DNA of 32,484 bases, from NCBI GenBank assembly GCA_022826185.1, contig JAJDVH010000135.1, positions 1 through 32,484 of the forward strand, in the 5' to 3' direction. Made by a program: the position numbers and the translations under genes. Under the pieces are notes generated by a model. That model was not told the DNA's origin. It saw only the letters and a program-made list of their open reading frames with translations, and did no database searches. This stretch comes from Alphaproteobacteria bacterium (GTDB lineage Bacteria > Pseudomonadota > Alphaproteobacteria > Bin95). Of the stretch, positions 1 to 17,224 are shown in pieces; the first letter of the stretch is position 1; every line of letters starts with the position of its first letter.

Positions 1-1038
1 GCCGAGAGCAAGCCTCGAAAATCTCGGTCGCCGGCGGCAGTCGGGTAGATTTCGAAACCCAGTCGCGGCAGGGTGCCTTCAGGGGCAACATCGAACGCCA
101 TCATGAAGCGGTTGGAGACATCGTGGAGTCCCGACAGGAAGCGCAGAACTGTGGGGATCGAACCCGGCCACCGGAGTCCATCGAGAAATGGCTCCACCTG
201 AGCTGCCGAAACCTCCGCGACAACCAGCCTGACGGATCGGGGCGTGCGTTCGGGAAAGGCGGCGGCGAATGCGACTACTGCGCCGGAGGGCAGCACAGCA
301 AATGCGCGGGACAACGCGCGGTGTTCATGTCGCGGGTCACTCCGGCCAAAGACACGACTGAGCGTGTCGGCAAGGCGAGCCGGTTCAATGTCGCGCCGCC
401 CGGGGTTAGCGAAGCATCCGATCGCAGATTGATCGCCGGAGCGGCTTTCCGCTCCTCGGGGATGTCAATGAGATCGTATTCGAGCATCAGCCATCTGTAC
501 GGTTCCGGCTTGCTGGCCAGATAGGCGTCGAGCCAGGCTTTCAGGGATGTCGCCGCTGCCCCGTCGGTGCCCGCCAGGTAGTGGTGCGGGACCCGTGAGG
601 AGGTCACGGTGAGCGAGAAGTCAGCAGCCGGTTCTGGATCGTCGAGTCTCATACCAACGGCGTCGGATTGTGACTCATGGGAGATGGCCTCAACTGTCAC
701 CCCGGCCTCCGAGCCGGGGCCCAGTGCGGCCGTGCGGCGGCCCGGGGCGGTCGCGCCTGTTCTCCCTGGCTGCGCCCGCCGGGAACGCTGTAGCTGGACC
801 CCGGCTCGGGCCGGGGTGATAAAAAAGAGCGCAAGCACGAGGAAAGGCGGCGGCGCCATAGGTTCCGGTCAACGACCGTTGGTATCAGTTCGAAGATGCA
901 CAGGTTCGCCGCCACGGCTGCGGGAAAATCTCCGACCCGCAGCAACAGTCGGTCCCAACCCCGTCCAGCGAGCAAGGAATCGGGAATCTGTGGCCGCAGT
1001 GCCTCGAGCAGGTCCCGAAGCTGCGTCATTGCGTTCAT
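1..1038 (-). pseudogene. Broken paralogue of the uncharacterised RiPP-locus protein at 10206-11258 (partial at window edge)
   Basis: Read leftward, three pieces in different frames align in order with the intact protein at 10206-11258. The N-terminal piece (1038 to about 888) carries LRDLLEALRPQIP and GWDRLLLRVG, matching LRDVLLGLRSQFP and GWDCLLQRVG. The middle piece (about 648 to 400) carries DPEPAADFS and YDLID. The last piece (about 395 to 1) carries RVFGR, PERTPRSVRLVV, WPGS and PRLGFEIYPT. A 233-bp insertion separates the first two pieces, and a small frameshift near 395-405 separates the last two. The start ATG at 1038 follows a purine-rich GAGGGAGAAAGG. The 3' end lies beyond the window. 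Function is unknown; some C-terminal features of the intact copy recall ABBA-fold peptide prenyltransferases. That the reading frame is broken is well supported; a biochemical role is not. Confidence 0.85.
652..884. mobile_element. MITE-like insertion with TIRs and 3-bp target duplication
   Basis: The element begins TACCAACGG and ends CCGTTGGTA, so the ends are perfect 9-bp inverted repeats. It is flanked by TCA at 649-651 and 885-887. Removing the element plus one TCA rejoins the host gene exactly in frame, giving F-E-L-R-L-D-D-P-E-P, which matches F-E-F-R-L-G-E-P-E-P of the intact paralogue. Inside lies a second, nested inverted repeat (697-721 against 796-819, CCCCGGC..GAGCCGGGG type), so the whole element could fold into a long hairpin. 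It has no transposase and would need one supplied in trans. The family is not identified. Confidence 0.85.
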
Positions 1039-1423
1039 GCCTTTCTCCCTCAGTGCTCGTCCACGATTTCAACATCACACGGTCCGTCGTCAGTCCCGAA
1101 CCCCATGCTATCCTAGATGCGGAGGCGGGGGATGGTCGCAAAGACACGCAGACGCCAAGCGCCTGCGGTTCGTTTTGCAGCGCGTCCACGGCCACTGGCC
1201 GGGCACAATACGGGGTGCGACGCTGACCGCCGGAGGCGGTTTTTGAACGGGAATGGATCACCGGTAAAACGACGCTCTCGGACCCTCGCCTCCGACACCA
1301 GAAAATCAATACCAAAACCGGTCCGAACGCGACCAAAACCGACCCCAGGAACCACCTGGCGTTTCACTCAACGGGGCGGATCAAACCCGATGGACCATGT
1401 GGGTTTTCTGACCGTCGCCTACA
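1039..1423. other. Intergenic stretch without recognisable gene
   Basis: About 385 bases between the broken paralogue and the small oxygenase. Open frames here have unconvincing, arginine-rich translations on both strands and no family resemblance. The only structured element I see is the plus-strand terminator-like hairpin at 1226-1244. Confidence 0.5.
1226..1244 (+). terminator. Rho-independent terminator-like hairpin
   Basis: ACCGCC (1226-1231), loop GGA, GGCGGT (1235-1240), then a short T run to 1244. The orientation is for plus-strand transcription, yet no plus-strand gene is recognisable upstream. It may be a relic of a lost gene or may block antisense transcription into the leftward operon. 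Confidence 0.5.
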
Positions 1424-1975
1424 TCAGGAGGTCGATATTGGTGATTCAACGCTTCGCATGACATTCAGCACCAACGCGCATCTTTGCTCAATATCATTGC
1501 AGGCATAGTTGTGCCAGGTATCCTCTGCCCTACTGAACACCAATGCTCGGTTACGCTTCCAGGGAACCTCAAAACGATTGTCGCCTTCCCGACTGGAAAA
1601 CAGGAATGTTCCGAGATTGTCTTTGGGTTTGCAATAGACAACGGTCGATAACAGCTTTTCGGGAATGTCCGGATGAATTGGATGGATCAGGGATTTTGGA
1701 ACTGTCTGGAATCCCCAATCAATGTACTTGGCCCGATCCAGCTTCTGTGGGGCCAGTTCTTTCAGCATGTTCAAGAGCACATCTGCGCATCTTTCATTGA
1801 TCGGCCGCAATTCCTCCTCGCTGCAACGGCTGGTATTGTAGACGCACTGTCCTGAAAGGCTGAACGCGCACTTGAGAGCCAAAATCAGCCTCCTAGGATT
1901 GAAGCTTCTGTCAATCTCGCCGAATCCATTCTTTATGGTTTCAAATTCATCCGGTTCGAAAAAATCATCGAACAC
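1424..1975 (-). CDS. Small Fe(II)/2-oxoglutarate-type oxygenase
   Basis: A 183-residue protein with the layout of small 2OG-Fe(II) oxygenases. It has a proximal H-x-D in IHPDIPEK, a distal His in EDTWHNYAC, and a following Arg (EQRCALVLN) placed to bind 2-oxoglutarate. A hydroxylation or desaturation of the neighbouring RiPP precursor is a reasonable inference; the substrate is not shown by sequence. The only usable start in this frame is GTG at 1975, with no clear Shine-Dalgarno. Coding-like sequence continues in frame upstream (PDDLPHGKSFFDYSWTNPYVV) right back to the TGA that ends the CmcJ-like gene, 28 codons earlier. The gene may therefore be the severed C-terminal half of a fused double oxygenase, or may start at a poor GTG. 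It lies downstream of the precursor on the same strand. Confidence 0.75.
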   Translation of the reverse strand: MFDDFFEPDEFETIKNGFGEIDRSFNPRRLILALKCAFSLSGQCVYNTSRCSEEELRPINERCADVLLNMLKELAPQKLDRAKYIDWGFQTVPKSLIHPIHPDIPEKLLSTVVYCKPKDNLGTFLFSSREGDNRFEVPWKRNRALVFSRAEDTWHNYACNDIEQRCALVLNVMRSVESPISTS

Positions 1976-2059
1976 AACATACGGGTTGGTCCATGAGTAG
2001 TCAAAAAAACTCTTTCCATGGGGCAGGTCATCCGGAGTCTGGGGGATGCGGGGCTCCCG

Positions 2060-3034
2060 TCAATTCGCCGGAGCCCGGTCAACCATTGGCGGCTGCCGCT
2101 GAACGCCCGTCCAGTCGACCGCCGGTTCCTGACGCCAGGTCGAAACCGTGCCATCCAGCCGCCTGTTCGGCACTTCGGCCCGGAATCTGGCCTTACGGCG
2201 CTCGCGGTCCGGGTCGGCCTCGGGCAGGACCGCCAGAACGCGAACTTCGACGGACTCTCGCAATGGCGCATTTTCCCGGGTAGCCGGATCCCGAAATGCG
2301 GCATGAAAGACCGTGCGCGAAGCGGCGTCTTCCAGACGTGTATCATATTGCTTGAAGATCAGTGCCTCGCTCGGCTTCATGTTCGGGAAGTAATGCCAGA
2401 TCTGGCCCGCATCGTGAATCAGGCGGCAATCGATCACACGTGTTCGCGGTTCGGTGCGCCGCAGGCTATCGGCGTAAACGATGTCGTCAGCTGAGACCGT
2501 GGCGAGATCGCACAGCGCCAGCGGCCCCGATTCGATCAGACGATCGGAATTCGTTCCGCGCCAGACGTTGAACAAGGCGAAGTGCCGACCCTCCGGCACA
2601 TCGACAAAATCTTCTATCGTAGGAGAAAAGTCGGCGTGAACGACCGCCCCGTACAGACCCTGGCGAGCGGGACCTGTGACTCTTCCGACGCGAAAACCGT
2701 GCTGCACAACCTTGGCCGCCACGCATCCGGTGGCGGCCTCGACCAGCTCTTCGCAATGCCTGAAATAGCGGCCGGTCACTTGGGATCGATTGCCAAAATC
2801 CAGATCGACCGGTGCCTCGACCAACTGGAAGCCCTCGCATTCGATACTCGGCGCCCGCTTGAGTGAACGGGCGTCGTGAATCCGAATCTTCCTGCGGCAA
2901 ATCGCGTCCCGGCTGCCATCCGGATCGAACGCTTCCCTGGAATTCAGCCGGGTAAACCGATATTTCGGGCTAACGAAGAAGCCGTCCGAAATCACGAACG
3001 GCGCGTCCAGGAATGGCGGCAATCGTCCTCTCAT
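2060..3034 (-). CDS. CmcJ/NvfI-type Fe(II)/2OG-dependent oxygenase
   Basis: A 324-residue protein when started at the ATG at 3034 (MRGRLPPFLDAPF). A 359-residue form from 3139 is possible, but the extra N-terminus looks non-coding. Family marks are the proximal H-x-D in VHADFS, the signature NVWRG followed by PLALCD, YFPNMKPSEALIFKQYD, a distal His in TVFHAAFRDP and RESVEVR near the catalytic C-terminus. CmcJ/NvfI-type enzymes act in secondary metabolism on diverse scaffolds. Here the gene sits about 240 bases downstream of a RiPP precursor, so oxidation of the peptide or of an attached group is inferred. About 60 residues follow the last family motif, ending in MVDRAPAN. The stop TGA at 2062-2060 lies in the same frame as the next oxygenase. 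A truncated relative is present at 9089-9277. Confidence 0.85.
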   Translation of the reverse strand: MRGRLPPFLDAPFVISDGFFVSPKYRFTRLNSREAFDPDGSRDAICRRKIRIHDARSLKRAPSIECEGFQLVEAPVDLDFGNRSQVTGRYFRHCEELVEAATGCVAAKVVQHGFRVGRVTGPARQGLYGAVVHADFSPTIEDFVDVPEGRHFALFNVWRGTNSDRLIESGPLALCDLATVSADDIVYADSLRRTEPRTRVIDCRLIHDAGQIWHYFPNMKPSEALIFKQYDTRLEDAASRTVFHAAFRDPATRENAPLRESVEVRVLAVLPEADPDRERRKARFRAEVPNRRLDGTVSTWRQEPAVDWTGVQRQPPMVDRAPAN

Positions 3035-3276
3035 TTGTCGATCTGTCCATGCCCGTTCGGTTTGCCAGCCGACCGCCACGCGAAATCCCGACGGTCTTCG
3101 GACGGTCCCTGCACACACACCGCCAAGCCTCGGACTCATAATCGCGCAGCCGGATTCCGGCCGTTGCGACCTTTACATGGCGAGGAAGTCGGTGGCGGCC
3201 TATGTCCAGACTCCCTGCATCGGGAAGCCCGGATCGCGTCTCCGCCTAAACCGGAAGCCCGTAATGGATACAGGGC

Positions 3277-3540
3277 CTAGTACGAATCGTCGGTGGGAGC
3301 AATGCCTCCCGAAGCTCCCCGCAGTTCCTCGTCCGAAAGGCGGCTGCCGGCAGGCGGCAGGACCAAATGAAATTCTGTCGCGCTTTCTTCATGCACATTG
3401 ATGGAAAACCCTTGAGGCACCGTAAGCCCGGTGGCTTCCTTGATTGCCTCGCGCGGGTCTTCAATCAACCTGCCGCGGAATGCTTCGTCCTCATCCGCCT
3501 TGACACGAATCATGTCTTCGATTTCCACTACGGTCTTCAT
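3277..3540 (-). CDS. RiPP precursor with nitrile-hydratase-like leader peptide (NHLP) and 8-residue core
   Basis: An 87-residue acidic peptide. Residues 1-79 resemble NHLP leaders: an N-terminal acidic helix, AFRGRLIEDPREAIKEATGL, then PQGFSINVHEE, FHLVLPP and a C-terminal LSDEELRGASGG. The double glycine at 78-79 is the expected cut site for the C39 peptidase encoded at 3959. That would leave a core of only IAPTDDSY, which has Thr, Ser, Tyr, Asp and Pro side chains but no Cys, so it cannot be a lanthipeptide or an azoline product. The start ATG at 3540 follows CGAGGAG 12 bases upstream. A strong promoter-like sequence and an inverted repeat lie just upstream. It is the first gene of the leftward set and is divergent from the transporters. 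Leader identity is confident; the modifications are unknown. Confidence 0.9.
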   Translation of the reverse strand: MKTVVEIEDMIRVKADEDEAFRGRLIEDPREAIKEATGLTVPQGFSINVHEESATEFHLVLPPAGSRLSDEELRGASGGIAPTDDSY

Positions 3541-3565
3541 GACCTGTTTCTCCTCGCTCTGACAA

Positions 3566-3584
3566 CGACGTGCCGATCACGTCG
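3566..3584. promoter_or_regulatory. Candidate operator: perfect 7-bp inverted repeat at the precursor promoter
   Basis: CGACGTG-CCGAT-CACGTCG is a perfect inverted repeat with a 5-base centre. It begins two bases beyond the -10 box of the leftward promoter, so it would cover the expected transcription start and could act as a repressor site. No regulator gene is recognisable in the RiPP locus, so the binding protein would be encoded elsewhere. A 5'-UTR hairpin role is an alternative. Confidence 0.5.
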
Positions 3585-3585
3585 C

Positions 3586-3614
3586 ATTATGCTCAGGAAT
3601 TCCCGCCATGGCAA
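3586..3614 (-). promoter_or_regulatory. Sigma-70-like promoter for the precursor gene
   Basis: On the minus strand, TTGCCA (3614-3609), a 17-base spacer and CATAAT (3591-3586). Both boxes match the consensus at five of six positions. The predicted start near 3579 lies about 40 bases before the precursor ATG. Confidence 0.6.
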
Positions 3615-3640
3615 GCTGCAGCAAGGCGCGGTGCTTGCGG

Positions 3641-3669
3641 TTGAAAGCTCAAAGGGGTTCCAATATCTT
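3641..3669 (+). promoter_or_regulatory. Sigma-70-like promoter for the transporter operon
   Basis: TTGAAA (3641-3646), a 17-base spacer and TATCTT (3664-3669). It sits back to back with the precursor promoter; the two -35 boxes are 26 bases apart, so both could answer to one regulator. The next candidate gene starts at 3798. Confidence 0.45.
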
Positions 3670-3797
3670 CCGTTGCAGGCATCCGGCCATGCCGTCAGAG
3701 GTTTTCAACGCCGTCCGGACTTCGGACCGAACCGCCACCGGAACTTCCAGGTCGCGACAGAACTGTTGGAACAAGGTCAGCGTGCAAAGAAGAAAGC

Positions 3798-3947
3798 GTG
3801 TATAGAAGAGCAGCCCTCCTTCACAGGATGCAGCCCGAAGCCCTGGACGATCCGCTGACGGTCACGGCGCCGCATGGGCGCGTCTTCACTAGGGCCTTGC
3901 TTGTTTTGCTGACGATCATGGCTGTCTGGGCAGTTCTGGCAGTTTGA
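3798..3947 (+). pseudogene. N-terminal stump of an HlyD-like (NHLM-type) membrane-fusion protein
   Basis: From GTG 3798 a 49-residue frame reads YRRAALLHRMQPEALDDPLTVTAP, then one transmembrane helix (ALLVLLTIMAVWAVLAV), and stops. NHLM-system secretion proteins of the HlyD family start in this way: an ALxRLxSPExLDxxLTVTSP-like cytoplasmic segment followed by a single membrane span and then a long periplasmic part. Here everything after the helix is missing, and the stop overlaps the upstream end of the next frame (start ATG at 3959). I read it as a truncated adaptor gene. The alternative is a genuine small membrane protein co-expressed with the transporter. The resemblance was judged by eye. 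Confidence 0.5.
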
Positions 3948-3958
3948 GCCCGGTCGCA

Positions 3959-6178
3959 ATGGCGAGGCTTTCGGCATCACGGTTCCCGTATGTCAGCGGA
4001 TTCCTACGGTCCTGGGGGCGGCCTTTCCGCACCCCGCTGCTCATGCAGTTGGAGGCAACCGACTGCGGGGCGGCCTGTCTGGGCATTGTGCTCGCCCATC
4101 ACGGACGCTGGATATCGCTGGAGCAGCTGCGCGAGGAATGCCATGTGGGCCGGGACGGCTCGAATCTCAGTGACATTGCCCAGGCTGCCAGAGCCCACGG
4201 CATGAGGGCCACAGGCCGCACCATGGAGTTGCGGCATGTGGCGAGGTTGCCATGCCCCACGATCCTGTTCTGGGGATTCAACCATTTCGTTGTTCTCGAG
4301 GGCGTCTCGCGCGACCGCTACTATGTGAACGATCCGGCTGAGGGACATCGCGCCGTTGGCCGGGAAACGTTCTATCGTGAATTCACAGGCGCCGTGCTGG
4401 AGCTCGAACCCGGCCCCGAATTCCAGCGGCAGGGCTCCCGGCGCAGCGGTCTGCAGAGGCTTTGGCCCTTGTTGGAGGGTCACGGTTCCCGGTTGGCGCG
4501 CATCGCGGCTCTGGGATTGCTGCTCGCTCTCATGTCCCTGGTCCTGCCGTTCTTGCTGGCGGTGTTCGTGGACGGTTTCCTCGAAGGCGGGCAGAGCGAC
4601 CTGGGCGGAGCGCTGATTGCAGGCATGCTGTCTGCCGGCGCTGGCGCCTATGTCCTGACATGGCTGCAGATGCGTTCGCTGCGCGAACTGGTCATTCGGC
4701 TTTCCATCGTTCAGTCCGACCGGTTTCTCGATACCCTGCTGCGCCTTCCGTTACGCTTTTTCGCCCACAGGCTTCCGGGCGATCTGGCCATGCGTCTGCG
4801 GCAGATCGACCAGGTGGCGGACATCGGCGCCGGGCAACTCGTGGGCATTGCGGTCGATCTGGTGATGAGCGTGGCTTTTCTGGCGGTCATGCTGGTCTGG
4901 AACCTGCCGTTGGCCTGTGCGGTCGCCGGGCTTGGCATCTCCTGCTATTTCCTGACCCGGGTGCTGACCCGTCTGCGCCGGGACCAGAATCACCGGCTGC
5001 GGCGGGAACAGGGCATGTTGGCGGGCCAAAGCGCCGCCGGCCTGCAATCGATCGAGAGTCTGTTGGCGACCGCCCGCGAAAACGATTTCTTCTCCGACTG
5101 GAGCGGCAGACAGGCCCGTGAACTGAAAGCAAGGCAGGAGTTTGCGGAACTCGGGCATGTGGCGGCTTCGCTCCCGTACCTGTTCCAGTTGCTCACCGCG
5201 GTTGCCGTGTTCGGGTTCGGCGGCTGGCTGATGATGCTGGAGCAGGTCAGCATCGGCGCGTTGATGGGGTTCTATGTCCTTGCCGGCAACTTCATCCGCC
5301 CCGTTACGCGGGTCGCCCAGTTCTCCGACCTGCTGGAAACCCTGGAAGCCGATCTGTCCAGAATGGAAGATGTTCTGCACGCACCGCGCAAGCTGGCGCA
5401 TGCAGCGAACGTCCAGGATGCGCACCGGCAAATCGCGGCGCTGCAAGGCCAGCTGCGCCTGATCGGCAAGCTGGAGGTGCGGGGCGTAACTTTCGGCTAC
5501 CAGCGAAGCCGCGACCCGCTGATCGACGACCTGAGCCTGACGATCGAGCCCGGCCAGCGCATTGCCGTGGTCGGTCCAAGCGGCTCCGGCAAGTCCACTC
5601 TGGCGCAACTGACAGCCGGGCTCTATCCGCCCTGGTCGGGGGACATCCTGTTCGACGGCCACCCGCTCGCAGAGATCCCGCGCGAGGTCTTCTACAGATC
5701 GGTCGCCATCGTCGACCAGCATCCGGTTCTGTTCGCCGCCTCCATCCGCGACAATCTCACCATGTGGGATGCGACCACTCCGGACGACTTCGTCACCGCC
5801 GCCGCCAGGGATGCCGCGATTCACGGGGACATCATCGGCCGTCCCGCCGGATACGACTCCCCGGTGGAGGAGGGCGGGCGCAATTTCAGCGGCGGTCAGC
5901 GACAGCGGATGGAGATCGCCCGGGCGCTGGTCAATAATCCATCGCTGCTGATCCTGGACGAGGCGACCAGCGCCCTCGACCCCACGACCGAGTTGCTCGT
6001 TGACGACGGGATTCGCCGCCGCGGGTGTTCCTGCCTTATTATCGCGCATCGTCTGAGCACGATTCGCGACGCGGACCGGATATTCGTCGTCGACAAGGGC
6101 CGTATCGTGGAGCAGGGGACCCACGATGAACTCCATGCCCGCGACAGCGTCTACCGCAGGTTGATCCAGGGTGATTGA
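3959..6178 (+). CDS. NHLM-type ABC transporter with C39 peptidase domain (leader-cleaving exporter)
   Basis: A 739-residue peptidase/permease/ATPase protein. The C39 domain (about 25-150) has QLEATDCGAACLG with the catalytic Cys36, preceded by the oxyanion Gln30, then His109 in GFNHFVVLEG and Asp125 in VNDPAEG. The membrane domain follows at about 180-460. The ATPase has Walker A GPSGSGKST near 539, the signature FSGGQRQR near 643, Walker B LLILDEAT near 665 and the H-loop IIAHRLST. Such proteins cut precursors after Gly-Gly and export the core through the inner membrane, which fits the Gly-Gly of the divergent precursor. An upstream start (TTG at 3944) would add five residues. The stop overlaps the next gene by 8 bases, so translation is probably coupled. 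Confidence 0.95.
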   Translation: MARLSASRFPYVSGFLRSWGRPFRTPLLMQLEATDCGAACLGIVLAHHGRWISLEQLREECHVGRDGSNLSDIAQAARAHGMRATGRTMELRHVARLPCPTILFWGFNHFVVLEGVSRDRYYVNDPAEGHRAVGRETFYREFTGAVLELEPGPEFQRQGSRRSGLQRLWPLLEGHGSRLARIAALGLLLALMSLVLPFLLAVFVDGFLEGGQSDLGGALIAGMLSAGAGAYVLTWLQMRSLRELVIRLSIVQSDRFLDTLLRLPLRFFAHRLPGDLAMRLRQIDQVADIGAGQLVGIAVDLVMSVAFLAVMLVWNLPLACAVAGLGISCYFLTRVLTRLRRDQNHRLRREQGMLAGQSAAGLQSIESLLATARENDFFSDWSGRQARELKARQEFAELGHVAASLPYLFQLLTAVAVFGFGGWLMMLEQVSIGALMGFYVLAGNFIRPVTRVAQFSDLLETLEADLSRMEDVLHAPRKLAHAANVQDAHRQIAALQGQLRLIGKLEVRGVTFGYQRSRDPLIDDLSLTIEPGQRIAVVGPSGSGKSTLAQLTAGLYPPWSGDILFDGHPLAEIPREVFYRSVAIVDQHPVLFAASIRDNLTMWDATTPDDFVTAAARDAAIHGDIIGRPAGYDSPVEEGGRNFSGGQRQRMEIARALVNNPSLLILDEATSALDPTTELLVDDGIRRRGCSCLIIAHRLSTIRDADRIFVVDKGRIVEQGTHDELHARDSVYRRLIQGD

Positions 6179-9074
6179 GACCGGCCCCGACTGCGCGCTG
6201 GCCAGGCTCATTCTCGCCTGCGGGGAGGCGCATCCGGCTGCCGCGAACCGGCCGGTGGCGCTCGGCGACGCCGAAGTGGTCTGGTATGTCGAGAGCGGAG
6301 CGGTCGACGTGCTTGCCGCCGAATATAACGACGGGCGGATAACCTCTGCGTACAAGCATCTCGCCCGGCTGAATCCGGGCCGGATGGCGTTCGGTGTCAA
6401 TGCCTCCGGCCATTCGATGAAACTCATGGCCAAGGGCCTGCCGGGATCCCGCCTGCGCAGTCTGACGCGCGAACGTTTGCTCGATGAGCTGGCGAGAGCG
6501 GAAAACGCCGGCGGTATCCGGAAATCCCTAGACGCGCAGGTCGATGCCTGGATCGGCAACCTTACCGACGCAGTGGCCCGCGACATGATGGCGAGGCCTC
6601 CTACCGCGCTTCGCCTCGGTCCCGGGCGCATGGCCGGAGCTGGAGTCGCCTCGACCGACCGGGGTGTCGTCTGGCTTGCCGCGCAAGGGCTGGATGCCGG
6701 TTTCCTCGATCTTGCGGATATCGGGTCCGACGAATGGTTCCCGGTTGCCCCGGCCTCATGGGTCCGCCTGCACACGGCGGCAGAGTTCGAATGCAGGTTG
6801 ACCGCCGCCCTCGACAGCGGCCGCTTGTTGCGCAAGGTCTTGCCGGGGTTTCACGAGAGGCTTCTCGATGTGGAGAGCCTCAACCGGCGCCTGTCTCTGG
6901 TCGACGAAGCCAATCTGCAGGTCACCCAGGCGACACGGCGTCAAAACGAAAAGGCCAGGGCCAGGACCGGCCTCAAGGCGCTTTACGACCCGCGCCTTCG
7001 CCCCGAGGACAATGAAACCGCGCTCGGCAAGGCCTTGCGCATGATCGGCAGGCGGGAAGGCATTGACATACGCACGCCGGCTGTCGCGGGCAACAGGCAA
7101 CCGACGCTGAGGGACTATTGTGAAGCATCGGCGGTTCGCGCGCGCCGGGTGCGGTTGACGGAGGAAAGCCGCTGGTGGCTCGGAAACAGCGGCGCCATGC
7201 TGGCTTTTCGCCGGGGAAGCGGGGAGCCTGTGGCACTGCTGCCCGGTCCGGCCGGCCGATACCGGGTCGTGGATCCTGCGACCGGCAGGTCCAGCCGGGC
7301 GGACAGCAAGACCGCGGACGAAATCCGGGATGTCCACCTGCTGTATCCCAGACTGCGCCGCGAGGACGCGACAGGCCTGAAAGACCTGTTGCTTGCGGGG
7401 TGCGCCGGGTCGGCGCTGGATTTGGTCCAACTCGTGCTGGCCGGCCTTGCCGGCGGCACCCTGGCGCTGGCGCCGGCATTTGCCGTCAGCCTGCTGGTCG
7501 GCGCCATGGCGCCGGGCGGCGATGCGGCGATGCTCCTCGAGTTTGCAGCCGTTCTGGCCGGGCTGGCCGCGACTGCCGCCCTGATGCACATTCTTCGCGG
7601 AACAGCGCTCATGCGCGCCGAAGGGCGCTTTGCCGCCCGGGTCGGGGCCGCGATCTGGGACCGCCTGTTGCGCCTTTCCCCGGCTTTCTTTCGCCGCTAC
7701 AGCGCCGGCGAACTCTCGGCGAGATCCATGGTGTTCCAAGATGTAAGGGATCATGTCTCCGGCGTCACCGCCGACGGCGTGCTGTCCGCGCTGTTCCTGG
7801 TTCCGGCGCTTGGGCTGCTCTTCTACTACGATGTCCGGCTCGGCTGGGTCGCCCTCCTGCTCGCGGCGGCCATGATCGGGGTCACGGGCGCTTTCTGCCT
7901 GTCCCAGATCGAACCGCAGCGCCGCTATCTCGAAACCTCGCGCAGGCTGGCAGGGGACATCCAGCAGTTCCTCACCGGCATTGCGAAACTGCGCACCACC
8001 GGAGCCGAGGACTCGGCCTTTGCCGCCTGGGCCAGGCAGTATCTGCATCACAAGCAGGCCGAAATCCGGCTGTCGGTCCTCGGCGAGCATCTTGCGGCCT
8101 TCGGCGCCGCAACACCCTGCGTGGCAAGCGCAGTCCTCTTCTCGGCGGTCGCCGCGCAGGACGCGCGCGGTTTCGAGACGGCCGACTTCCTCGCAGTGCA
8201 TATCGCGGTCATGGTTCTGTGCATGTCCGTCATCACGCTCGGAAACTCCGCCCGGGCGATCGCCTTCATCAAACCGGCCTGCGAGCATGTCGCCCCCATC
8301 CTGGCGAGCCCGGTGTCCGCAGGTTCCGGCGGTCGGGATCGGCCGGTGCTTGCAGGAGGGATACTCTTCGACAGGGTGGGATTTGCCTACTCCGAAAGCG
8401 GATCGAAGGTGCTGGACGATGTTTCGATCCATGTGGAGCCCGGCGAGTTCGTCGCCATCGTCGGCGAATCCGGCTCAGGCAAGAGTACCCTGTTCAGAAT
8501 TGCGCTCGGGCTGGAAACACCGGTCTCGGGGGCCGTTTACTATGACGGTCGGGATCTGGCCCATCTGGACCTCGGCGCGGTCAGGCGACAGACAGGCGTG
8601 GTCGTTCAGAACGGCGCCCTGCAGCCCGGCAGCGTTCTCGACAATATCGTCGGCAACAACGAGGAACTCACCGAGGAGGACGCCTGGCGAGTTGCCCGGC
8701 AGGCCGGCATTGAGGAGGAAATCCGCGCCATGCCGATGGGGCTCCATACCCAGGTAGGCGGGAATCCCGCAAACTTTTCCGGCGGCCAAAGCCAGCGGAT
8801 ATTGATTGCGGCCGCGCTGGTGCGCGAGCCCCGCATCGTTTTCCTCGATGAGCCCACGAGCTGGCTGGATACCCGAAGCCAGGCGCTGACGATGCAGGGC
8901 ATCGAGGACTCCACCAGCACCCGCCTGGTCATCGCGCACCGCCTCTCCACGATTCGCATGGCCAACCGGATCTACGTGCTGCAGGGCGCGCGCGTAGCGC
9001 AATCCGGCAGCTATGAGGAGCTGCTTGCAGCACAAGGCCCGTTCCGCGACCTGGCCCTGCGCCAGACGGCCTGA
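6171..9074 (+). CDS. NHLM-type ABC transporter, permease/ATPase with N-terminal accessory domain
   Basis: A 967-residue protein from GTG 6171, overlapping the C39 transporter gene. It has a long N-terminal part (about 1-390) with a cyclic-nucleotide-binding-like beta segment (VWYVESGAVDVLAAEY, later LARLNPGRMAFGV) but no C39 catalytic residues. A six-helix ABC membrane domain follows at about 410-710, then an ATPase with Walker A GESGSGKST near 765, signature FSGGQSQRI near 869, Walker B IVFLDEPTS and H-loop VIAHRLST. Length and layout match the second ABC protein that accompanies the C39 transporter in NHLP systems, so the two probably form a heteromeric exporter. A full-length membrane-fusion partner is lacking in the locus. 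Confidence 0.93.
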   Translation: MIETGPDCALARLILACGEAHPAAANRPVALGDAEVVWYVESGAVDVLAAEYNDGRITSAYKHLARLNPGRMAFGVNASGHSMKLMAKGLPGSRLRSLTRERLLDELARAENAGGIRKSLDAQVDAWIGNLTDAVARDMMARPPTALRLGPGRMAGAGVASTDRGVVWLAAQGLDAGFLDLADIGSDEWFPVAPASWVRLHTAAEFECRLTAALDSGRLLRKVLPGFHERLLDVESLNRRLSLVDEANLQVTQATRRQNEKARARTGLKALYDPRLRPEDNETALGKALRMIGRREGIDIRTPAVAGNRQPTLRDYCEASAVRARRVRLTEESRWWLGNSGAMLAFRRGSGEPVALLPGPAGRYRVVDPATGRSSRADSKTADEIRDVHLLYPRLRREDATGLKDLLLAGCAGSALDLVQLVLAGLAGGTLALAPAFAVSLLVGAMAPGGDAAMLLEFAAVLAGLAATAALMHILRGTALMRAEGRFAARVGAAIWDRLLRLSPAFFRRYSAGELSARSMVFQDVRDHVSGVTADGVLSALFLVPALGLLFYYDVRLGWVALLLAAAMIGVTGAFCLSQIEPQRRYLETSRRLAGDIQQFLTGIAKLRTTGAEDSAFAAWARQYLHHKQAEIRLSVLGEHLAAFGAATPCVASAVLFSAVAAQDARGFETADFLAVHIAVMVLCMSVITLGNSARAIAFIKPACEHVAPILASPVSAGSGGRDRPVLAGGILFDRVGFAYSESGSKVLDDVSIHVEPGEFVAIVGESGSGKSTLFRIALGLETPVSGAVYYDGRDLAHLDLGAVRRQTGVVVQNGALQPGSVLDNIVGNNEELTEEDAWRVARQAGIEEEIRAMPMGLHTQVGGNPANFSGGQSQRILIAAALVREPRIVFLDEPTSWLDTRSQALTMQGIEDSTSTRLVIAHRLSTIRMANRIYVLQGARVAQSGSYEELLAAQGPFRDLALRQTA

Positions 9075-9088
9075 AGAGGGGCGGCAAA

Positions 9089-9277
9089 ATGAGCCGGTTC
9101 CCGTTCTTCGTCGATGCGCCGTTCGACATCAACTTCAGGAATCGGGAGCTTGTCCCGATCCGCTTCCATGACTATTGCTCGCAGTCGGTCATGGTGGCGA
9201 CTCTGAGGATCGCCGGATTTCAGGCTACGCTTCACGGTCGGCGGGCCGGACCCGTAACATCAACGCTCCTGTTCTGA
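9089..9277 (+). pseudogene. Truncated CmcJ-like oxygenase fragment
   Basis: A 62-codon frame reading FPFFVDAPFDINFRNRELV and ending HGRRAGPVTSTLLF. Its first residues match the N-terminus of the CmcJ-like protein at 2060-3034 (LPPFLDAPF). The rest matches a later part of the same protein (VEAPVDLDFGNRSQV and HGFRVGRVTG). This looks like an internally deleted copy in which two similar stretches, DAPF and EAPV, became joined, followed by loss of the catalytic part: no H-x-D and no distal His are present. A GAGGGGCGG before the ATG means it may still be translated. A small accessory protein is possible, but the catalytic role is gone. Confidence 0.5.
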
Positions 9278-9285
9278 GGACACAG

Positions 9286-10209
9286 ATGCCCCAAATGGTT
9301 TCGCAATCGCTTTGGTCGGCTGCACAGGCCGCCATTGCTCGCGGGCTCGATTTTCTCGAGTCGGCGGTGGGGCCGGATGGCGCCTGGCGCTGCAACTATT
9401 ACGGGACCTTCCAACTCGAAGAGGATCGAATTCCCCCCTTCGTGGCTGCTCTCGGCGTAGTCGCTCTCCAGTCCTGCCCCCCCCCGCAACGTAGTGGAAA
9501 CAGTCTCTCCCGCTCCCGCGGCTGCATCCTTTCCCACATAAAGTTCCCCGGCATCTGGCGCTGGGCGCCGCACGGCTTCGAGGTCGATTCCACGTCCGTT
9601 TGCTCGCTCGCTGTCGGGCGCCATAGCCATCCCTGGCTCTTCTTCGGACGGAATGTGCAGCCCGTCCTGTCCTGCCGCGACGACAATGGCCGGTTCCTGA
9701 CATGGATGAGCTCGTTCGGCCCGTTCGGGATGCCCAATGACGACGACCCGATCGTCAATGCCAATGTCGTTACCTATCTGGGCGACCGGGAGGAGACACG
9801 ACCCGTTCAGCAATGGATCGAGCGCCTGATTGTCGAGGACCGGGTGCCGGGTTCGTCCATCTGGTACAACCCCATGGACCTCTATTGCAGCGTCAGCCGC
9901 GCGAGCTGTATTGCGCCACCGGCCTTTGAGACCGTACGGCTCGCGCTCGGGAACCGCATCCGGGAGTTTGCGCCCGAGACCGCCTACCGGGCGGCCCAGA
10001 TAATTTCCTCACTGGACATGCTCGCAGACGGGACAAATGCCGACCTGATCGCGCGGCGCGCGGAGCAACTGGTCGACATGCAGCGCGCCGATGGCGGCTG
10101 GCCCCCCACGGAGTTCCTGCGCGCTCCCGAAGGCTCGCGCATCTATGTCTCCGAGGCGCTGACCGCGGCGTATTGCGTGGAGGCCCTTTCTCGTCTGGCC
10201 CGGTCGTGA
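9286..10209 (+). CDS. Terpenoid-cyclase-like / prenyltransferase-type alpha-barrel protein
   Basis: A 307-residue protein from ATG 9286 (MPQMVSQSLW), with GAGG six bases upstream. The QW-like repeats of the squalene-cyclase/prenyltransferase superfamily are visible: ARGLDFLESAVGPDGAW near the start, and MQRADGGWPPTEFL with IYVSEALTAAYCVEAL at the end. The class II cyclase DxDD position reads E-V-D-S-T (Glu99 to Thr103), so only the middle Asp is kept; cyclase activity by the usual acid mechanism is therefore uncertain. A run of nine C at 9477-9485 lies inside the gene. The stop overlaps the next start (GTGA at 10206-10209), so the two proteins are probably made together. A role in RiPP tailoring with an isoprenoid is inference from context. 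Confidence 0.75.
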   Translation: MPQMVSQSLWSAAQAAIARGLDFLESAVGPDGAWRCNYYGTFQLEEDRIPPFVAALGVVALQSCPPPQRSGNSLSRSRGCILSHIKFPGIWRWAPHGFEVDSTSVCSLAVGRHSHPWLFFGRNVQPVLSCRDDNGRFLTWMSSFGPFGMPNDDDPIVNANVVTYLGDREETRPVQQWIERLIVEDRVPGSSIWYNPMDLYCSVSRASCIAPPAFETVRLALGNRIREFAPETAYRAAQIISSLDMLADGTNADLIARRAEQLVDMQRADGGWPPTEFLRAPEGSRIYVSEALTAAYCVEALSRLARS

Positions 10210-11258
10210 CCGGGGCGTTCCATCTGCGGGATGTGCTGCTCGGGCTTCGTTCGCAGTTCCCTGCCGCGTTGCTCGATGGACAGGGCTGGGACTGCCTGCT
10301 GCAGCGCGTCGGCGGGCTGCCCGCTGAGGCGGCCGCCGCATGCGGTTTCGAGTTCCGGCTCGGCGAGCCGGAACCGGCTGCGGACTTTTCCGTCGTGATA
10401 ACACCCGGCCCGGTCGCGCAGCACTATGTCGCCAGCGGCCTGCGGGCGCCGCCGGCCACCGTAGAGTCCTGGCTCAGCAGGCATCTTGCCCGCAAGTCGG
10501 GGCGGGACGACTGGATCGACTGGATTCTGTTGGCCTATGACCTCATTGACGCGCCGTCGGGCCGACAGCTTGCTCCGGCCGTCTATCTGAGCCCCGCCCT
10601 CTCGCGTGCGCCAGCCTCGGGAGCGCTTTGGTCGCAGCTTCTGGTGGACACTCTCGGGAGGGTGGCCGGGCGGCCCCTGGAGGTCCAGGAACGAGTTTCG
10701 CTATGCCGGGCTCTTCAGGCCGTGCCATCGACAGCCACTGTCGTCTTCGCCGCGGTGGCTCCGGATCGCACGCCGAGGGCGATCCGGCTGATTGTCACGG
10801 GAATTTCCACCCCTCGGCTGCTGTCCTTTCTCGACCGGCTCGAATGGCCCGGCTCGCTCACCATGGCTGCCCGGGCGCTGGCCGCCATGGAGAGCGTGTC
10901 CAACAGCGTCATGGCGTCCTTCGATATCACATCCGATGGAATCGCGCCGAGGCTGGGGTTTGAAATGTATCCGAGCTATCCGGCGTGCCCCGACCCCGCC
11001 GGGATTCGCGCCCTGGTGAGAACCTGGATCACGACCCGAAGATCCGAATGGACCCGCCTGATCGACCGCCTTGAAGAAACCGGGCTATGCCTGCCGGACA
11101 AGGCGCGCGGCCTGCTGGACTGGCCGAGACGCCACAGTGTCTTTGCCAAGCAAGGAGCATTTCGCCTGCATATGGGGATCAATCACGTCAAGATCGTTCT
11201 GGCCGGCGAGTGCCTGCAGGCAAAGGCCTATGCCGGATTGAAGGTCTTTCCGCTTTGA
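10206..11258 (+). CDS. Uncharacterised RiPP-locus protein, possibly ABBA-fold prenyltransferase-like
   Basis: A 350-residue protein starting at GTG 10206, which overlaps the stop of the cyclase-like gene. I do not recognise a named family with certainty. It shows PAADFSVVITPGPVAQHY, a WILLAYDLIDAP stretch, RTPRAIRLIVTGIS, WPGS, PRLGFEMYPS, and a C-terminal INHVKIVLAGECLQAKAYAGL. Alternating beta strands ending in lGFElyp-like and KAYxGL-like segments recall ABBA prenyltransferases such as the cyanobactin PatF/LynF group; that is a fold-level suspicion only. A second, broken copy lies at 1-1038, so the locus once held two. Pairing with a terpene-cyclase-like protein and a core containing Tyr, Ser and Thr makes peptide prenylation a testable idea. 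Confidence 0.7.
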   Translation: MTGAFHLRDVLLGLRSQFPAALLDGQGWDCLLQRVGGLPAEAAAACGFEFRLGEPEPAADFSVVITPGPVAQHYVASGLRAPPATVESWLSRHLARKSGRDDWIDWILLAYDLIDAPSGRQLAPAVYLSPALSRAPASGALWSQLLVDTLGRVAGRPLEVQERVSLCRALQAVPSTATVVFAAVAPDRTPRAIRLIVTGISTPRLLSFLDRLEWPGSLTMAARALAAMESVSNSVMASFDITSDGIAPRLGFEMYPSYPACPDPAGIRALVRTWITTRRSEWTRLIDRLEETGLCLPDKARGLLDWPRRHSVFAKQGAFRLHMGINHVKIVLAGECLQAKAYAGLKVFPL

Positions 11259-11444
11259 AAACGGGCGGCGCCCCAGTCGATTTGCGGTCGCGCCTGTAAC
11301 CGGATAACAGTCTCGGTCACCCCCTTGGTCTGTTTCGTGATGCAATGGCCGTTGTTATCATCCGTTCCCCTTACTGTTCCGGCTTGGCCGCCTCGTGGCG
11401 ATGCAAGGTTGGAGCGGGTTCCCTTCGCCGGTTTCGACGCTCCC

Positions 11445-12367
11445 ATGATCTGCCGTCTTTCCAATTCAACCAATGTCCGGGATGTCGTCGATGGCCTGAA
11501 TGAGGCTGGCGTCGTCATCGTCGAGACATTGTTGTCCGACCGGATCTGGATTCATCGCTCGGTGAGGCACCGATCCTGGGTCACGTGTTCACCGGCCAGC
11601 GCGCCAAGACCGTCGATACGGTAGTCAAGCGTAGCGAAACCTATCGCCGTATGCTGATGTCAGAGCTCTTCTCGGGCGCGGTGGGGACGATTCTGGGGGC
11701 GAATTGCAACACCTGGCGCCTGTCGGCGAGCTCCGCCATGTCCGTCCATGGGGGCGGCGAAATGCAGGTTCTTCATCGTGACGAGGACCTCTACGGGACT
11801 TATGTCGACCGTTCGCCCGAAGCGCCGCGATCACCACCATCCTGGCGTTGACCGACTTCGCAGAAGAAAATGCCGCGACCCGGTTTGTTCCCAGGAGTCA
11901 CCGGTGGCCTATGGATAGGGAGGCCGACGAAAGCAAGGTCATTACGCGACGATGAAGCGCAGTTCGCTGGCACTGTGGCTGGGCAAGACATTGCACGGGT
12001 TGAGCGTGAACCGTACGAACACTGCGCGAACCGGCATCATCACCATCTGTTCGGCAGGCTGATTGCGTCAGGCGGAGAATTTCTACGGTTCCGTCCCGAA
12101 AAGCTCGCCGGGACGTTCCCGGTCGAGATCAGGCGAATGCTTGGCTGGCAGGCCAATAACAAATTCATGGGCCGCACCATTGCCGACGAGGCGTTTGCAA
12201 AATGGCTCGACCAGGGACGCGAAGCGCCGGAAGTCGATAAGGATGCGGAGATTATCCGCGATGCGTTGTGGGGCCTAATTCAGGAAGGAAAGCTTTTCAT
12301 CCGGCGGGGCGGCTATGTCGTCAGGCGGGGCCGCGGGCGCGTGATCGTCGAACCCGCCGGGGAGTAA
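11445..12367 (+). pseudogene. Decayed phytanoyl-CoA dioxygenase (PhyH)-like gene
   Basis: Pieces in successive frames follow the order of a PhyH protein: DVVDGLNEAGVVIVETLLSD (from about 11480), then LGHVFTGQRAKTVDTVVKRSETYRRML, GGGEMQVLHRDEDLYG with the H-x-D iron ligands, ITTILALTDFAEENAATRFVPRSH, MKRSSLALWLGKTLHGLSVNRTN with the distal His and Arg region, then LRQAENFYGSVP and TFPVEIRRMLGW. Frames switch near 11560, 11820, 11945 and 12100. A TGA at 12060-12062 stands where PhyH proteins usually have Trp. The last 60 codons (to 12367, IRDALWGLIQEGKLFIRRGGYVVRRGRG) do not look like PhyH, and I cannot place them. It was probably a third or fourth oxygenase of the RiPP locus, now dead. Confidence 0.8.
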
Positions 12368-12583
12368 TCGTTCGGCCGGTTGTCGGCTGGACAGCTCTGC
12401 AAGGGGGCGGCCGGACCATGCAACCGGTTCCGGTCGTTTCAGGTTTTCAACCTTGACCGCAATGGCCTGCAAACGCCACGATTGCCGTGCGTCGAATATC
12501 GCGAGGACGGACCGGTCGAGCGTATTCCGACGGAACCGGTCCTGAACGCGGAAACCGTTCGACGGAACAAGGAGAGCGATCCA

Positions 12584-12871
12584 ATGAACAAATCGGACCT
12601 TGTGCGGCATGTGGCCGGCGAAACCGGAATGAGCAGGTCTGCCGCCGAGGCTGCGGTCAATGCGGTGCTGTCCGGCATCGCCGGGTCGCTGGCCCGGGAC
12701 GAACCGGTCAGCCTCCTGGGGTTCGGGACGTTTGCCGCCCGGCACCGGCCGGCCCGCACCGCCCGCAACCCGCGTACCGGCGAGACCATTGCCGTCGCGG
12801 CGTCCACCAGAGCGGCGTTCAAACCCGGAAAGTCGCTGAAGAACGCCCTGAACGCAGGCGCAGGGTCGTGA
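12584..12871 (+). CDS. HU/IHF-family DNA-binding protein
   Basis: A 95-residue protein with the classic HU layout: MNKSDLVRHVAGETGMSRSAAEAAVNAVL helices, then VSLLGFGTFAARHRPARTARNPRTGETI, with the strand-to-arm GFGTF and the RNPRTGE arm, and a C-terminal FKPGKSLKNALN. The arm carries the usual Arg and Asn-Pro residues for minor-groove binding and bending. ATG 12584 follows AAGGAGAG with good spacing; longer versions of the frame have no support. It acts in nucleoid structure or as an accessory protein in site-specific DNA events. It stands alone between the decayed PhyH gene and the exporter operon, so it may belong to a mobile segment or simply be an extra HU copy. Confidence 0.93.
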   Translation: MNKSDLVRHVAGETGMSRSAAEAAVNAVLSGIAGSLARDEPVSLLGFGTFAARHRPARTARNPRTGETIAVAASTRAAFKPGKSLKNALNAGAGS

Positions 12872-13293
12872 ACCCGGATTGCCGTCTGTTCGGCGACAAG
12901 TGAGGAGCGACTGGCCTGACAGATTGAAGGCGCGTTCTGTACAGGCGCGAAGATCATCGGGTGGCGCCGACATTCGAGATGTGCCGAGGAAGCGACTGCG
13001 CCGCACCAGGCAATGAAGCCGGGCCTCGGTATCGTTCATTGGTGACGATGGCTATACCGGGCATTCCTTGAGGTCGCCTTCGAACGGGCCGGCGCAACGC
13101 CCTGCCGGGAACGCCATCGCGGGGATGAGTTTCCGGTCCGGCGGGAAAGAGGTTGACACGTCTTTCGGTACTCCCGCCAATTCCCGCCCGAGTTGAACAT
13201 CCTCCGGGGGGCCATGTTTTTTCTGCGATCCGGTTTCCGTCCCGGGCGGGCGCGTAGAACGGGGCCCGGAAGCGGTGGGCGGCGTTGCGGACC
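12872..13293. other. Intergenic region upstream of the exporter operon
   Basis: About 420 bases without a recognisable gene; open frames on the minus strand look like shadows. The clearest regulatory signal is the TTGACA-led promoter candidate at 13153-13181. Confidence 0.5.
13153..13181 (+). promoter_or_regulatory. Candidate promoter of the TolC/MacAB-like operon
   Basis: A perfect -35 TTGACA (13153-13158), 17 bases, then GCCAAT (13176-13181), a weak -10. It is the only good -35 box in the 420-base gap, and lies about 110 bases before the first gene. Confidence 0.35.
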
Positions 13294-14727
13294 ATGAGGC
13301 TGGCACCATCCGGAACGTGGGCGGCGGGCAGGGTTGCGAGGCATTTCGGCGTCCTCCTGTGCCTCATGGCGCTGCTCTCCGCCCCCATGTCTGCCAAGGC
13401 GCAGGAGCGCCCCGCCTGCGAGGGCAATGTCTGCGAACTGACGCTGGAGGACGCCATCGCCCTGGCTCTGGAGCGCAACCGTCCGCTTCTGAACAGCCGG
13501 CTCGACCGGGAGGTGCGGCGGTTTTCTCTGGATGTGGCCGAGGACCGCTGGAGCCCCCGGGTAACCGTCGGTCCTTTCGCCAGCAGGGACCGGCAGGACC
13601 AGAAGGCCGGCGTGGGCGCCCGCACGGAGCTGCGCGTGCCCACCGGCGGGGCGTTCTCGCTCGGATGGGACGAGACCCTGTCCCGGCGGTTCGAGGGCGC
13701 CGCCTCGCAGAGCTTCCGCTTTTCCCAGCCCTTGCTGAAAGGCGCGTGGGCCGATATCGACAGCGCGCCGGTGCGCCAGGCGCGGCTTGCGGAGCGGACC
13801 GACATGCTCGCCTTCCGCAACACGGCGGCGGACTTGGTCGTGTCAGTCATCGGAGCGTATCGGGCGTTGATCGGAGCGGTGCGGCAGGTGGAGATCGGCG
13901 AGGCCTCGTTGCGGCGCGCGCGCGAACAGCTTGCGGCGACGCGCGCGCTGATCGGGGCGGGGCGCGTGGCCGAGCGCGAAGCCGGGCGGTCGGAGGCGGC
14001 GATCGCCAACCGGGAACTGGCGCTGGTGCGGGCGCGGAACCGCCTGGAGGCGGCGCAATTCGGGCTGATCGGCATTCTGGAGCTGGACAGCCGGGTGCGG
14101 ATTCGCCCGCTGGAGGAGCTGAGGGCCGAGCGGCGGGACGCCGCCTTTCAGCCGGCGCTGGAGGAGGCGCTGCGCGACCGCCCCGACTACCTGCAGGCCG
14201 GGCTTCGGGTCGAGAGCGCCCGGATCGCGCTGGCGGTGGCCCGCAACAACCTGTTGCCGGACCTTTCCGTCGGCGTCCAGTGGGACCATAACGACGCGGG
14301 CCGGACAGACAGCACGGTGCGTATGGACGCCACGATTCCCCTGAACGACCGGGCGCCCGAGCTTGAACGCCTCCGGGCCCGCAACGCGCTGAAGAAGGCG
14401 GAGAGGAGCGTTGTCGAGCTGCGCGAGTCGATCGGCGTGGCGCTGCGCCAGGCGGCGAACGATGTCGAGGTCGGGCTGCGCGTGGCGGAACTGGCGGGCG
14501 ATGCGCGCGCGCTGGCGGAGAGGAACCTTGCGGTGGAGGAGGCGAAGTTCGGCCAGGGCCTGTCGTCCACCTTCGAGGTGGCGGCGTCGGAGGAGGAGCT
14601 GGTGCGGGCGGAGCAGGCCGAGGCGGACGCCATCCTCGCCTATCTCGATGCGCTGACGCGGCTCGACCGGACGGCGGGGCGCACGCTGGACCGGTGGGGC
14701 ATCCGGCTTGAGGCGGCGGCGCGATGA
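13294..14727 (+). CDS. TolC-family outer-membrane channel protein
   Basis: A 477-residue protein beginning MRLAPSGTWAAG with a signal peptide (hydrophobic FGVLLCLMALLSAPMSAKA, cut before QERPAC). It has two TolC-type helical repeats: LTLEDAIALALERNRPLLNSRL near residue 50, and the long coiled-coil stretch RRAREQLAATRALIGAGRVAEREAGRSEA. The second repeat starts around ALEEALRDRPDYLQAGLRVESARIALAVARNNLLPDL. The length fits the family. It forms a trimeric outer-membrane exit duct. The stop overlaps the start of the adaptor gene (ATGA at 14724-14727), so the two are coupled. A start three codons upstream (TTG) is less likely. Confidence 0.9.
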   Translation: MRLAPSGTWAAGRVARHFGVLLCLMALLSAPMSAKAQERPACEGNVCELTLEDAIALALERNRPLLNSRLDREVRRFSLDVAEDRWSPRVTVGPFASRDRQDQKAGVGARTELRVPTGGAFSLGWDETLSRRFEGAASQSFRFSQPLLKGAWADIDSAPVRQARLAERTDMLAFRNTAADLVVSVIGAYRALIGAVRQVEIGEASLRRAREQLAATRALIGAGRVAEREAGRSEAAIANRELALVRARNRLEAAQFGLIGILELDSRVRIRPLEELRAERRDAAFQPALEEALRDRPDYLQAGLRVESARIALAVARNNLLPDLSVGVQWDHNDAGRTDSTVRMDATIPLNDRAPELERLRARNALKKAERSVVELRESIGVALRQAANDVEVGLRVAELAGDARALAERNLAVEEAKFGQGLSSTFEVAASEEELVRAEQAEADAILAYLDALTRLDRTAGRTLDRWGIRLEAAAR

Positions 14728-16493: not shown

Positions 16494-16518
16494 CGGCGGA
16501 GGAACGGCGCCGGGCGGG

Positions 16519-17211
16519 ATGCTGAGGCTCGCGGATGTCCGCCGGTCCTACAGGGTGGGGCCGGTCACGGCGGAGGTGCTGCGGGGCGTCGACCTGGAGG
16601 TCGGCGCGGGCGACCTTTTGTCGATCATGGGGCCGTCGGGCAGCGGCAAGACGACGCTGATGAACATTATCGGCCTGCTGGACCGCCCGAGTTCGGGCGC
16701 CTGCCTGCTCGACGGGCGCGATGTGGCCGGCCTGCGGGACGACGAGCTGTCCGCCTTGCGCAACCGGCATATCGGCTTCGTGTTCCAGTCCTTCCACCTG
16801 CTGCCGCAATTGACGGCGCTGGAGAATGTCTGCCTGCCGCTGGTGTATCGGGGCATGGCGCGCCCGGAGATGCGCCGCCGCGCCGCCGCCGTGCTGGAGA
16901 GCGTCGGCATGGCGGAGCGGACCGGCCACCGTCCGGACCAGCTTTCCGGGGGGCAGAAGCAGAGGGTCGCCATCGCCCGGGCGCTGGTGGGCGAGCCGGC
17001 GCTGCTGCTCGCGGACGAGCCCACCGGCGCGCTCGACACCGACACGGCCGCGGAGGTGATGGGGCTGATCCGGCGGCTGAACGCGGAGCGGGGCATTACG
17101 GTGCTGATCATCACGCACGACCCGTCGGTGGCGGGCCAGTGCGCGCGGCAGACGCGCATTCAGGGCGGCAGGCTGTTCGAGCCGGGCGCCGCGGCGCCGT
17201 CCCGGGCGTGA
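16519..17211 (+). CDS. MacB/LolD-type ABC transporter ATP-binding protein
   Basis: A 230-residue stand-alone ATPase: Walker A MGPSGSGKTTLMNI, Q-loop FVFQSFHLLPQLTALENV, signature LSGGQKQRVAIARAL, Walker B LLLADEPTGALDT and H-loop LIITHDPSVAGQC. The FHLLPxLTAxENVxLP stretch and the LADEPTGALD form are typical of the MacB/LolD group that powers mechanotransmission rather than substrate passage through the membrane. It starts at ATG 16519, 25 bases after the adaptor gene, and is followed 13 bases later by the matching permease. Its partners are the adaptor and the FtsX-like permease next door. Confidence 0.95.
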   Translation: MLRLADVRRSYRVGPVTAEVLRGVDLEVGAGDLLSIMGPSGSGKTTLMNIIGLLDRPSSGACLLDGRDVAGLRDDELSALRNRHIGFVFQSFHLLPQLTALENVCLPLVYRGMARPEMRRRAAAVLESVGMAERTGHRPDQLSGGQKQRVAIARALVGEPALLLADEPTGALDTDTAAEVMGLIRRLNAERGITVLIITHDPSVAGQCARQTRIQGGRLFEPGAAAPSRA

Positions 17212-17224
17212 CGCGGGGCGCGCG

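Follow-up and report, generated by a model that had tools for sequence, protein, structure and literature searches.

Locus organization

We analyzed a 32,484-nucleotide window, the whole stretch of DNA considered here, from an alphaproteobacterial draft genome of 279 contigs, whose source organism is probably a marine sponge symbiont. A first-pass annotation had described a precursor, an NHLM pair, a CmcJ-type and a small oxygenase, a cyclase-like protein and a duplicated protein, and this gene set lies at the positions it gave:

1..1047 (−): second ABBA prenyltransferase gene, broken (87–90% nucleotide identity to the intact gene of locus L036)
652..881 (strand not assigned): MITE-like insertion of about 230 bp with 13-nt terminal inverted repeats, within the second prenyltransferase gene
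1424..1975 (−): putative small Fe(II)/2OG oxygenase (motif HPD...WH...R)
2060..3139 (−): CmcJ/NvfI-family oxygenase, putative tailoring enzyme (NF041278, 165.7 bits)
3277..3540 (−): NHLP (proteusin-type) precursor peptide, 87 aa (TIGR03793, 65.4 bits; RBS GAGGAG; ortholog in locus L141)
3280..3303 (−): core peptide IAPTDDSY, read directly from the sequence (Gly-Gly codons at 3304–3309)
3944..6178 (+): NHLM_ABC1, C39 peptidase/permease/ATPase (TIGR03796, 852 bits; Peptidase_C39, E 1e-31)
6171..9074 (+): NHLM_ABC2 exporter subunit (TIGR03797, 682 bits)
9286..10209 (+): class II terpene cyclase-like protein, single domain (profile, AlphaFold2, Foldseek, alignment)
10206..11258 (+): predicted ABBA-fold prenyltransferase (AlphaFold2 and Foldseek; Pfam and NCBIfam have no model for the family)

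The precursor is divergent to the NHLM peptidase/exporter pair, scores above the cut-off of the NHLP leader model (50.9 bits), is preceded by the ribosome-binding site GAGGAG and ends in GASGG/IAPTDDSY-stop. Its L141 ortholog shares 67% identity, and 33 of the codon changes between the two are synonymous, which argues that the precursor is a real gene. The nitrile-hydratase-like leader, together with the Gly-Gly-type site (GASGG before the core) and the adjacent NHLM_ABC1 and NHLM_ABC2 genes, corresponds to a proteusin, and the annotation's reading of this precursor, core and exporter arrangement holds. NHLM_ABC1 scored slightly below (852 vs 853 bits) and NHLM_ABC2 below (682 vs 709 bits) the respective NCBIfam equivalog cut-offs. 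Cys-based chemistry on the window core was rejected, as IAPTDDSY contains no Cys.

Both oxygenases that had been proposed were recovered. The CmcJ/NvfI-family enzyme is well above its cut-off (80 bits) and occurs in the window and in loci L028, L036 and L141, and is absent from 78 srp-type loci (see below). The smaller protein matched no Pfam or NCBIfam family; its Fe/2OG motif was read by eye, and outside the window it was seen in L028 only. In agreement with the claim that no standard RiPP maturase is present, no YcaO or halogenase homologs were found in the whole window, and neither radical SAM proteins nor lanthionine synthetases were found among the scanned open reading frames (ORFs) of positions 1–12367. 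The ORF at 11870–12367, which the annotation had included, matched no family, and nothing observed ties it to the cluster. Downstream of the cluster (13285–18427) lie genes for a TolC-like outer membrane protein, an HlyD-type fusion protein with PAS domains and a MacB-type permease, which could be a separate efflux system.

Predicted prenyltransferase and terpene cyclase

The protein encoded at 10206–11258 has no credible Pfam or NCBIfam family, and its own family has no detectable sequence similarity to any Pfam prenyltransferase family. A Phage_int_M match (E 3e-4) was discarded as spurious: it fell below the cut-off, appeared in 1/49 members only and was contradicted by the fold. Since a profile search against PDB sequences returned only ATP synthase noise, the ABBA assignment rests on predicted structure. 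The AlphaFold2 model, built from 49 sequences (pLDDT 86, pTM 0.87), comprises five alpha-alpha-beta-beta repeats closing a barrel, as in ABBA enzymes. Every one of the best 50 Foldseek matches listed against the PDB was an ABBA prenyltransferase, and enzymes acting on tryptophan, tyrosine and peptides were among them; the probability was about 1.0 for most, at a moderate TM-score of about 0.5. Conserved Arg, Lys and Tyr residues were noted in the family. By its modeled fold the protein is thus an ABBA prenyltransferase, from which its activity is predicted. The first-pass annotation had counted two copies of this protein. A second copy exists, and it is not intact: compared with the L036 gene, from another genome of the same genus, it carries a 1-nt deletion and the 230-bp insertion, and it is cut by the contig end. 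The window's genome also holds a 74% identical relative of this insertion, on contig C261 (L027 3066–3244).

The protein at 9286–10209 is encoded by a separate ORF that overlaps the prenyltransferase gene by 4 nt. Its family profile retrieved drimenol synthase 9mhs from the PDB (E 9.7e-7), and its AlphaFold2 model (pLDDT 81) matched the drimenol synthase AsDMS (E 6.5e-10, TMq 0.78) and the meroterpenoid cyclase MstE; the transaldolase AprG was also among the structural matches. Profile and model both indicate a class II cyclase beta-domain fold akin to those of MstE and drimenol synthase. The invariant Asp of the (D/E)xDST motif (about 9586–9588 in the window) corresponds in the alignment to the position changed in the D333N structure of AsDMS and is kept in 34/34 aligned cyclases. 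The first motif position is Glu in the window (E-V-D-S), whereas the L141 ortholog reads DLDST and the L146 protein DCDDT. The protein is therefore class II terpene cyclase-like by profile and modeled fold, with predicted activity. MstE and drimenol synthases share with it the fold and the Asp of DxD(D/S/T)T, but act on prenylated small aromatic acids or free FPP, whereas a prenylated peptide is the putative substrate here. Together, the two assignments bear out the isoprenoid chemistry suggested in the first-pass annotation, for the prenyltransferase by predicted fold and for the cyclase by profile and fold.

Homologous loci and srp clusters

Scanning one genome per species across 85,000 species yielded 220 prenyltransferase relatives, and the 78 best loci among them were analyzed; an added phylum-wide sampling of 398 genomes contributed one distant match, near a Nif11-like ORF. 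By their record titles the relatives are MAGs of many phyla. One title names a sponge outright, and the isolate names suggest an origin in sponge microbiomes. NHLP precursors accompany the prenyltransferase in 69/78 loci, contrary to the possibility, raised by the annotation as a refutation, that homologs occur mainly without them. Its other refuting case, homologous loci with a standard maturase, applies in part: YcaO is present in 73/78 loci (81 sequences searched) and missing from the window's own clade. A desaturase-GlnE-like fusion (63/81 sequences searched) and a halogenase (23/81) are further components of these loci; neither these nor YcaO were found in the window, L028 or L036 among the same 81 sequences. 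The fusion is an 800-aa protein combining a fatty-acid desaturase with a GlnE-like nucleotidyltransferase domain (e.g. L074 5174–7576, and in srp loci).

Their cores (LCCCW and others) identify many of the homologous loci as srp clusters. As summarized in PMC10858898, srp clusters from sponge microbiomes (Nguyen et al. 2021) encode SrpE with the core LCCCW, a YcaO cyclodehydratase that makes thiazolines, and a Trp brominase. They have in common with the window an NHLP precursor, NHLM exporters and a homologous prenyltransferase, and in LCCCW loci also a homologous cyclase. In contrast, the YcaO (SrpC), the brominase (SrpI) and the NHLP-cyclase fusion are all lacking in the window, whose core is IAPTDDSY rather than LCCCW. 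The srp literature searched mentions no prenyltransferase or terpene cyclase for these clusters. Cyclases of srp clusters (L027 6911–8932, and many srp loci) have at their N-terminus an NHLP-leader domain that ends in a TGA/TGR-type site, so that this end of the protein resembles a leader peptide fused to an enzyme; the window cyclase, unlike these homologs, has no such domain. A 231-aa ORF on contig G000:C201 (L038 983–1675) contains two weak NHLP-like stretches and resembles a nitrile hydratase alpha subunit more than a precursor.

The cyclase co-occurred with Trp-ending cores in 36 srp loci (LCCCW) and with other cores in 0/27 (Fisher p 3e-17, a value that overstates independence, because in the tree the pattern is concentrated in few clades and reflects few independent events). 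L111 was the one apparent exception among complete (untruncated) Trp loci. L084 and L089 were not counted because their Trp-ending precursor lies 8–9 kb from the prenyltransferase studied. The ABBA homologs also accompany cores without a C-terminal aromatic residue (RCCC, LCCCG), so the family does not always use one.

The window's own clade and enzyme fusions

The window, L036, L141 and L142 form one supported group in the tree. L028, in a second genome, is nearly identical in content (99.2% DNA identity), and positions 1347–13199 match G004:C196 at 99.2% DNA identity. The srp-type prenyltransferases of those two genomes differ by about 24%, so recent transfer or contig mis-binning is possible. 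The L141 locus keeps the precursor, both NHLM_ABC genes, CmcJ, prenyltransferase and cyclase at 51–70% protein identity; the small oxygenase is missing and the core reads FAPGGDSW. This cluster (genome G197) adjoins a TrwC relaxase. L142 holds 11 precursors with 10 different cores, each ending in Trp, along with the prenyltransferase, exporters, HlyD and the cyclase; the ORFs tested there included no further maturase. Ser and Asp, common to the window and L141 cores, are not kept in L142. In L036 (genome G001) no precursor was found; a transposase-like ORF occupies that position, and little sequence follows the prenyltransferase before the contig end. L146 and L147 represent a minimal locus, in which a cyclase, a prenyltransferase and two leader-type ORFs lie between a gene of aspartyl-tRNA synthetase type and one for a MucR regulator; the L146 core (TVDWNNLNFPM) has a non-aromatic C-terminal residue. 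Apart from its near-identical copy, the window has the sole Tyr-ending core found.

In the distant loci L143–L145, a single protein of 720–735 aa has an N-terminal prenyltransferase half; the C-terminal half matches squalene-hopene cyclase in L144 and L145, and in L143 a similar DADST motif was read by eye. The L143 fusion (7496–11078) adjoins a lasso-type leader (YAPPELKLIGKVSEL), PqqD and an HPr-kinase-like gene, with a P450 and a methyltransferase nearby; its product is perhaps a terpene-modified lasso-like peptide.

Relation to known systems

Terpene chemistry on ribosomal peptides has been known since 2024. NctPC (Hubrich et al. 2024, Chem 10:3224) is described in PMC13290415 as a fused prenyltransferase-terpene cyclase that acts on ribosomal peptides, geranylgeranylating Trp and then cyclizing the chain; prenylation of macrocyclized lanthipeptides has been reported by the same groups, according to PMC12715784. 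Because of the NctPC precedent, the "new class" proposed in the first-pass annotation was dropped. Both systems combine an abba-barrel prenyltransferase and an MstE-like class II cyclase that modify an aromatic residue in a ribosomal peptide, on the window side by prediction. NctPC, however, is one fused protein acting on Trp, whereas the window has no such fusion and encodes separate enzymes with an NHLP proteusin precursor and a Tyr-ending core; compared with NctPC systems, it lacks a lanthionine synthetase and contains CmcJ and Fe/2OG oxygenases. Cyanobactin prenyltransferases, which have the ABBA fold, modify diverse residues (PMC13290415). This F-family and MppC share the fold predicted for the window enzyme and act on ribosomal peptides, but those described in the literature searched have no partner terpene cyclase.

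Proposed pathway and alternatives

Gene content, predicted folds, the conserved catalytic Asp and co-occurrence across genomes make it probable that the locus produces a proteusin peptide that is prenylated at its C-terminal Tyr, cyclized, oxidized, cleaved and exported; the residue modified, chain length, reaction order and products we infer. The fusions of both activities in distant genomes, the minimal L146 locus and the NctPC precedent also favor this reading; the moderate TM-scores, the few clades behind the cyclase–Trp pairing, the RCCC and LCCCG cores, the lone Tyr ending, Glu at the first motif position and the non-aromatic end of the L146 core weigh against it. The ABBA prenyltransferase would attach a long prenyl diphosphate-derived chain to the Tyr (Trp in relatives), and the separate class II cyclase would protonate its terminal alkene and cyclize it. 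The two Fe/2OG-type oxygenases probably tailor the product, after which the C39 peptidase of NHLM_ABC1 may cleave behind Gly-Gly and the NHLM_ABC pair export a short peptide-terpenoid hybrid. Tyr, Ser and Thr had all been suggested as targets. The FAPGGDSW core of L141, the all-Trp cores of L142 and the pairing of srp cyclases with LCCCW make the C-terminal aromatic residue the likely substrate, so that from these sequence patterns the window's C-terminal Tyr is most likely where the terpene chemistry occurs and Ser and Thr are less likely.

The prenyltransferase might instead target Ser, Thr, Asp, the N-terminus or the C-terminal carboxylate, the Tyr or Trp being kept for recognition or oxygenase chemistry. 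The homologs paired with RCCC and LCCCG cores and the diverse residues used by cyanobactin enzymes of the same fold (PMC13290415) speak for this, but a terminal aromatic is common to all cyclase-associated cores found except that of L146, and the Ser and Asp of the window and L141 cores are lost in L142; we consider such a target unlikely. Less likely again is a cyclase-like protein that serves as a leader-binding scaffold or uses its fold for other chemistry, leaving a linear prenyl chain on the product. Against the leader domain of the srp homologs, the AprG match and the imperfect DxDD motif of the window stand the terpene cyclases as best matches by both sequence profile and structure, the invariance of the catalytic Asp, the canonical L146 motif and the working cyclase domain of NctPC as related in PMC13290415. 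It is very improbable that the cluster is a decaying srp-type remnant that lost YcaO and halogenase and makes no product: one prenyltransferase copy is broken and relatives have more enzymes, but every other gene is open, the second genome retains nearly identical content, and the L141 ortholog, at its much lower protein identity, keeps the gene set including CmcJ.

Returning to prenylation and cyclization at the C-terminal Tyr, what is new, as far as the literature searched shows, is the use of unfused enzymes on a proteusin, the Tyr ending, a clade without another primary maturase and the srp link; an earlier mention in the 2021 srp or 2024 NctPC report is possible. The presence of the prenyltransferase-cyclase pair in widespread srp clusters implies that srp products are also terpene-modified peptides. 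The full proposal, a proteusin subclass with the unfused pair as its only primary maturases and a subsequently oxidized Tyr meroterpenoid, alongside srp products that are terpene-bearing bromotryptophan thiazoline peptides, may equally well hold or fail. The srp clusters are among the most widespread RiPP cluster types in sponge microbiomes, and two of their protein families thereby gain a putative function. The predicted peptide-terpene hybrids would alter the masses sought in sponge extracts, and the unfused enzymes, together with cores that vary in nature (one genome has 11 precursors), may provide a tool for placing terpenes on peptide C-termini.
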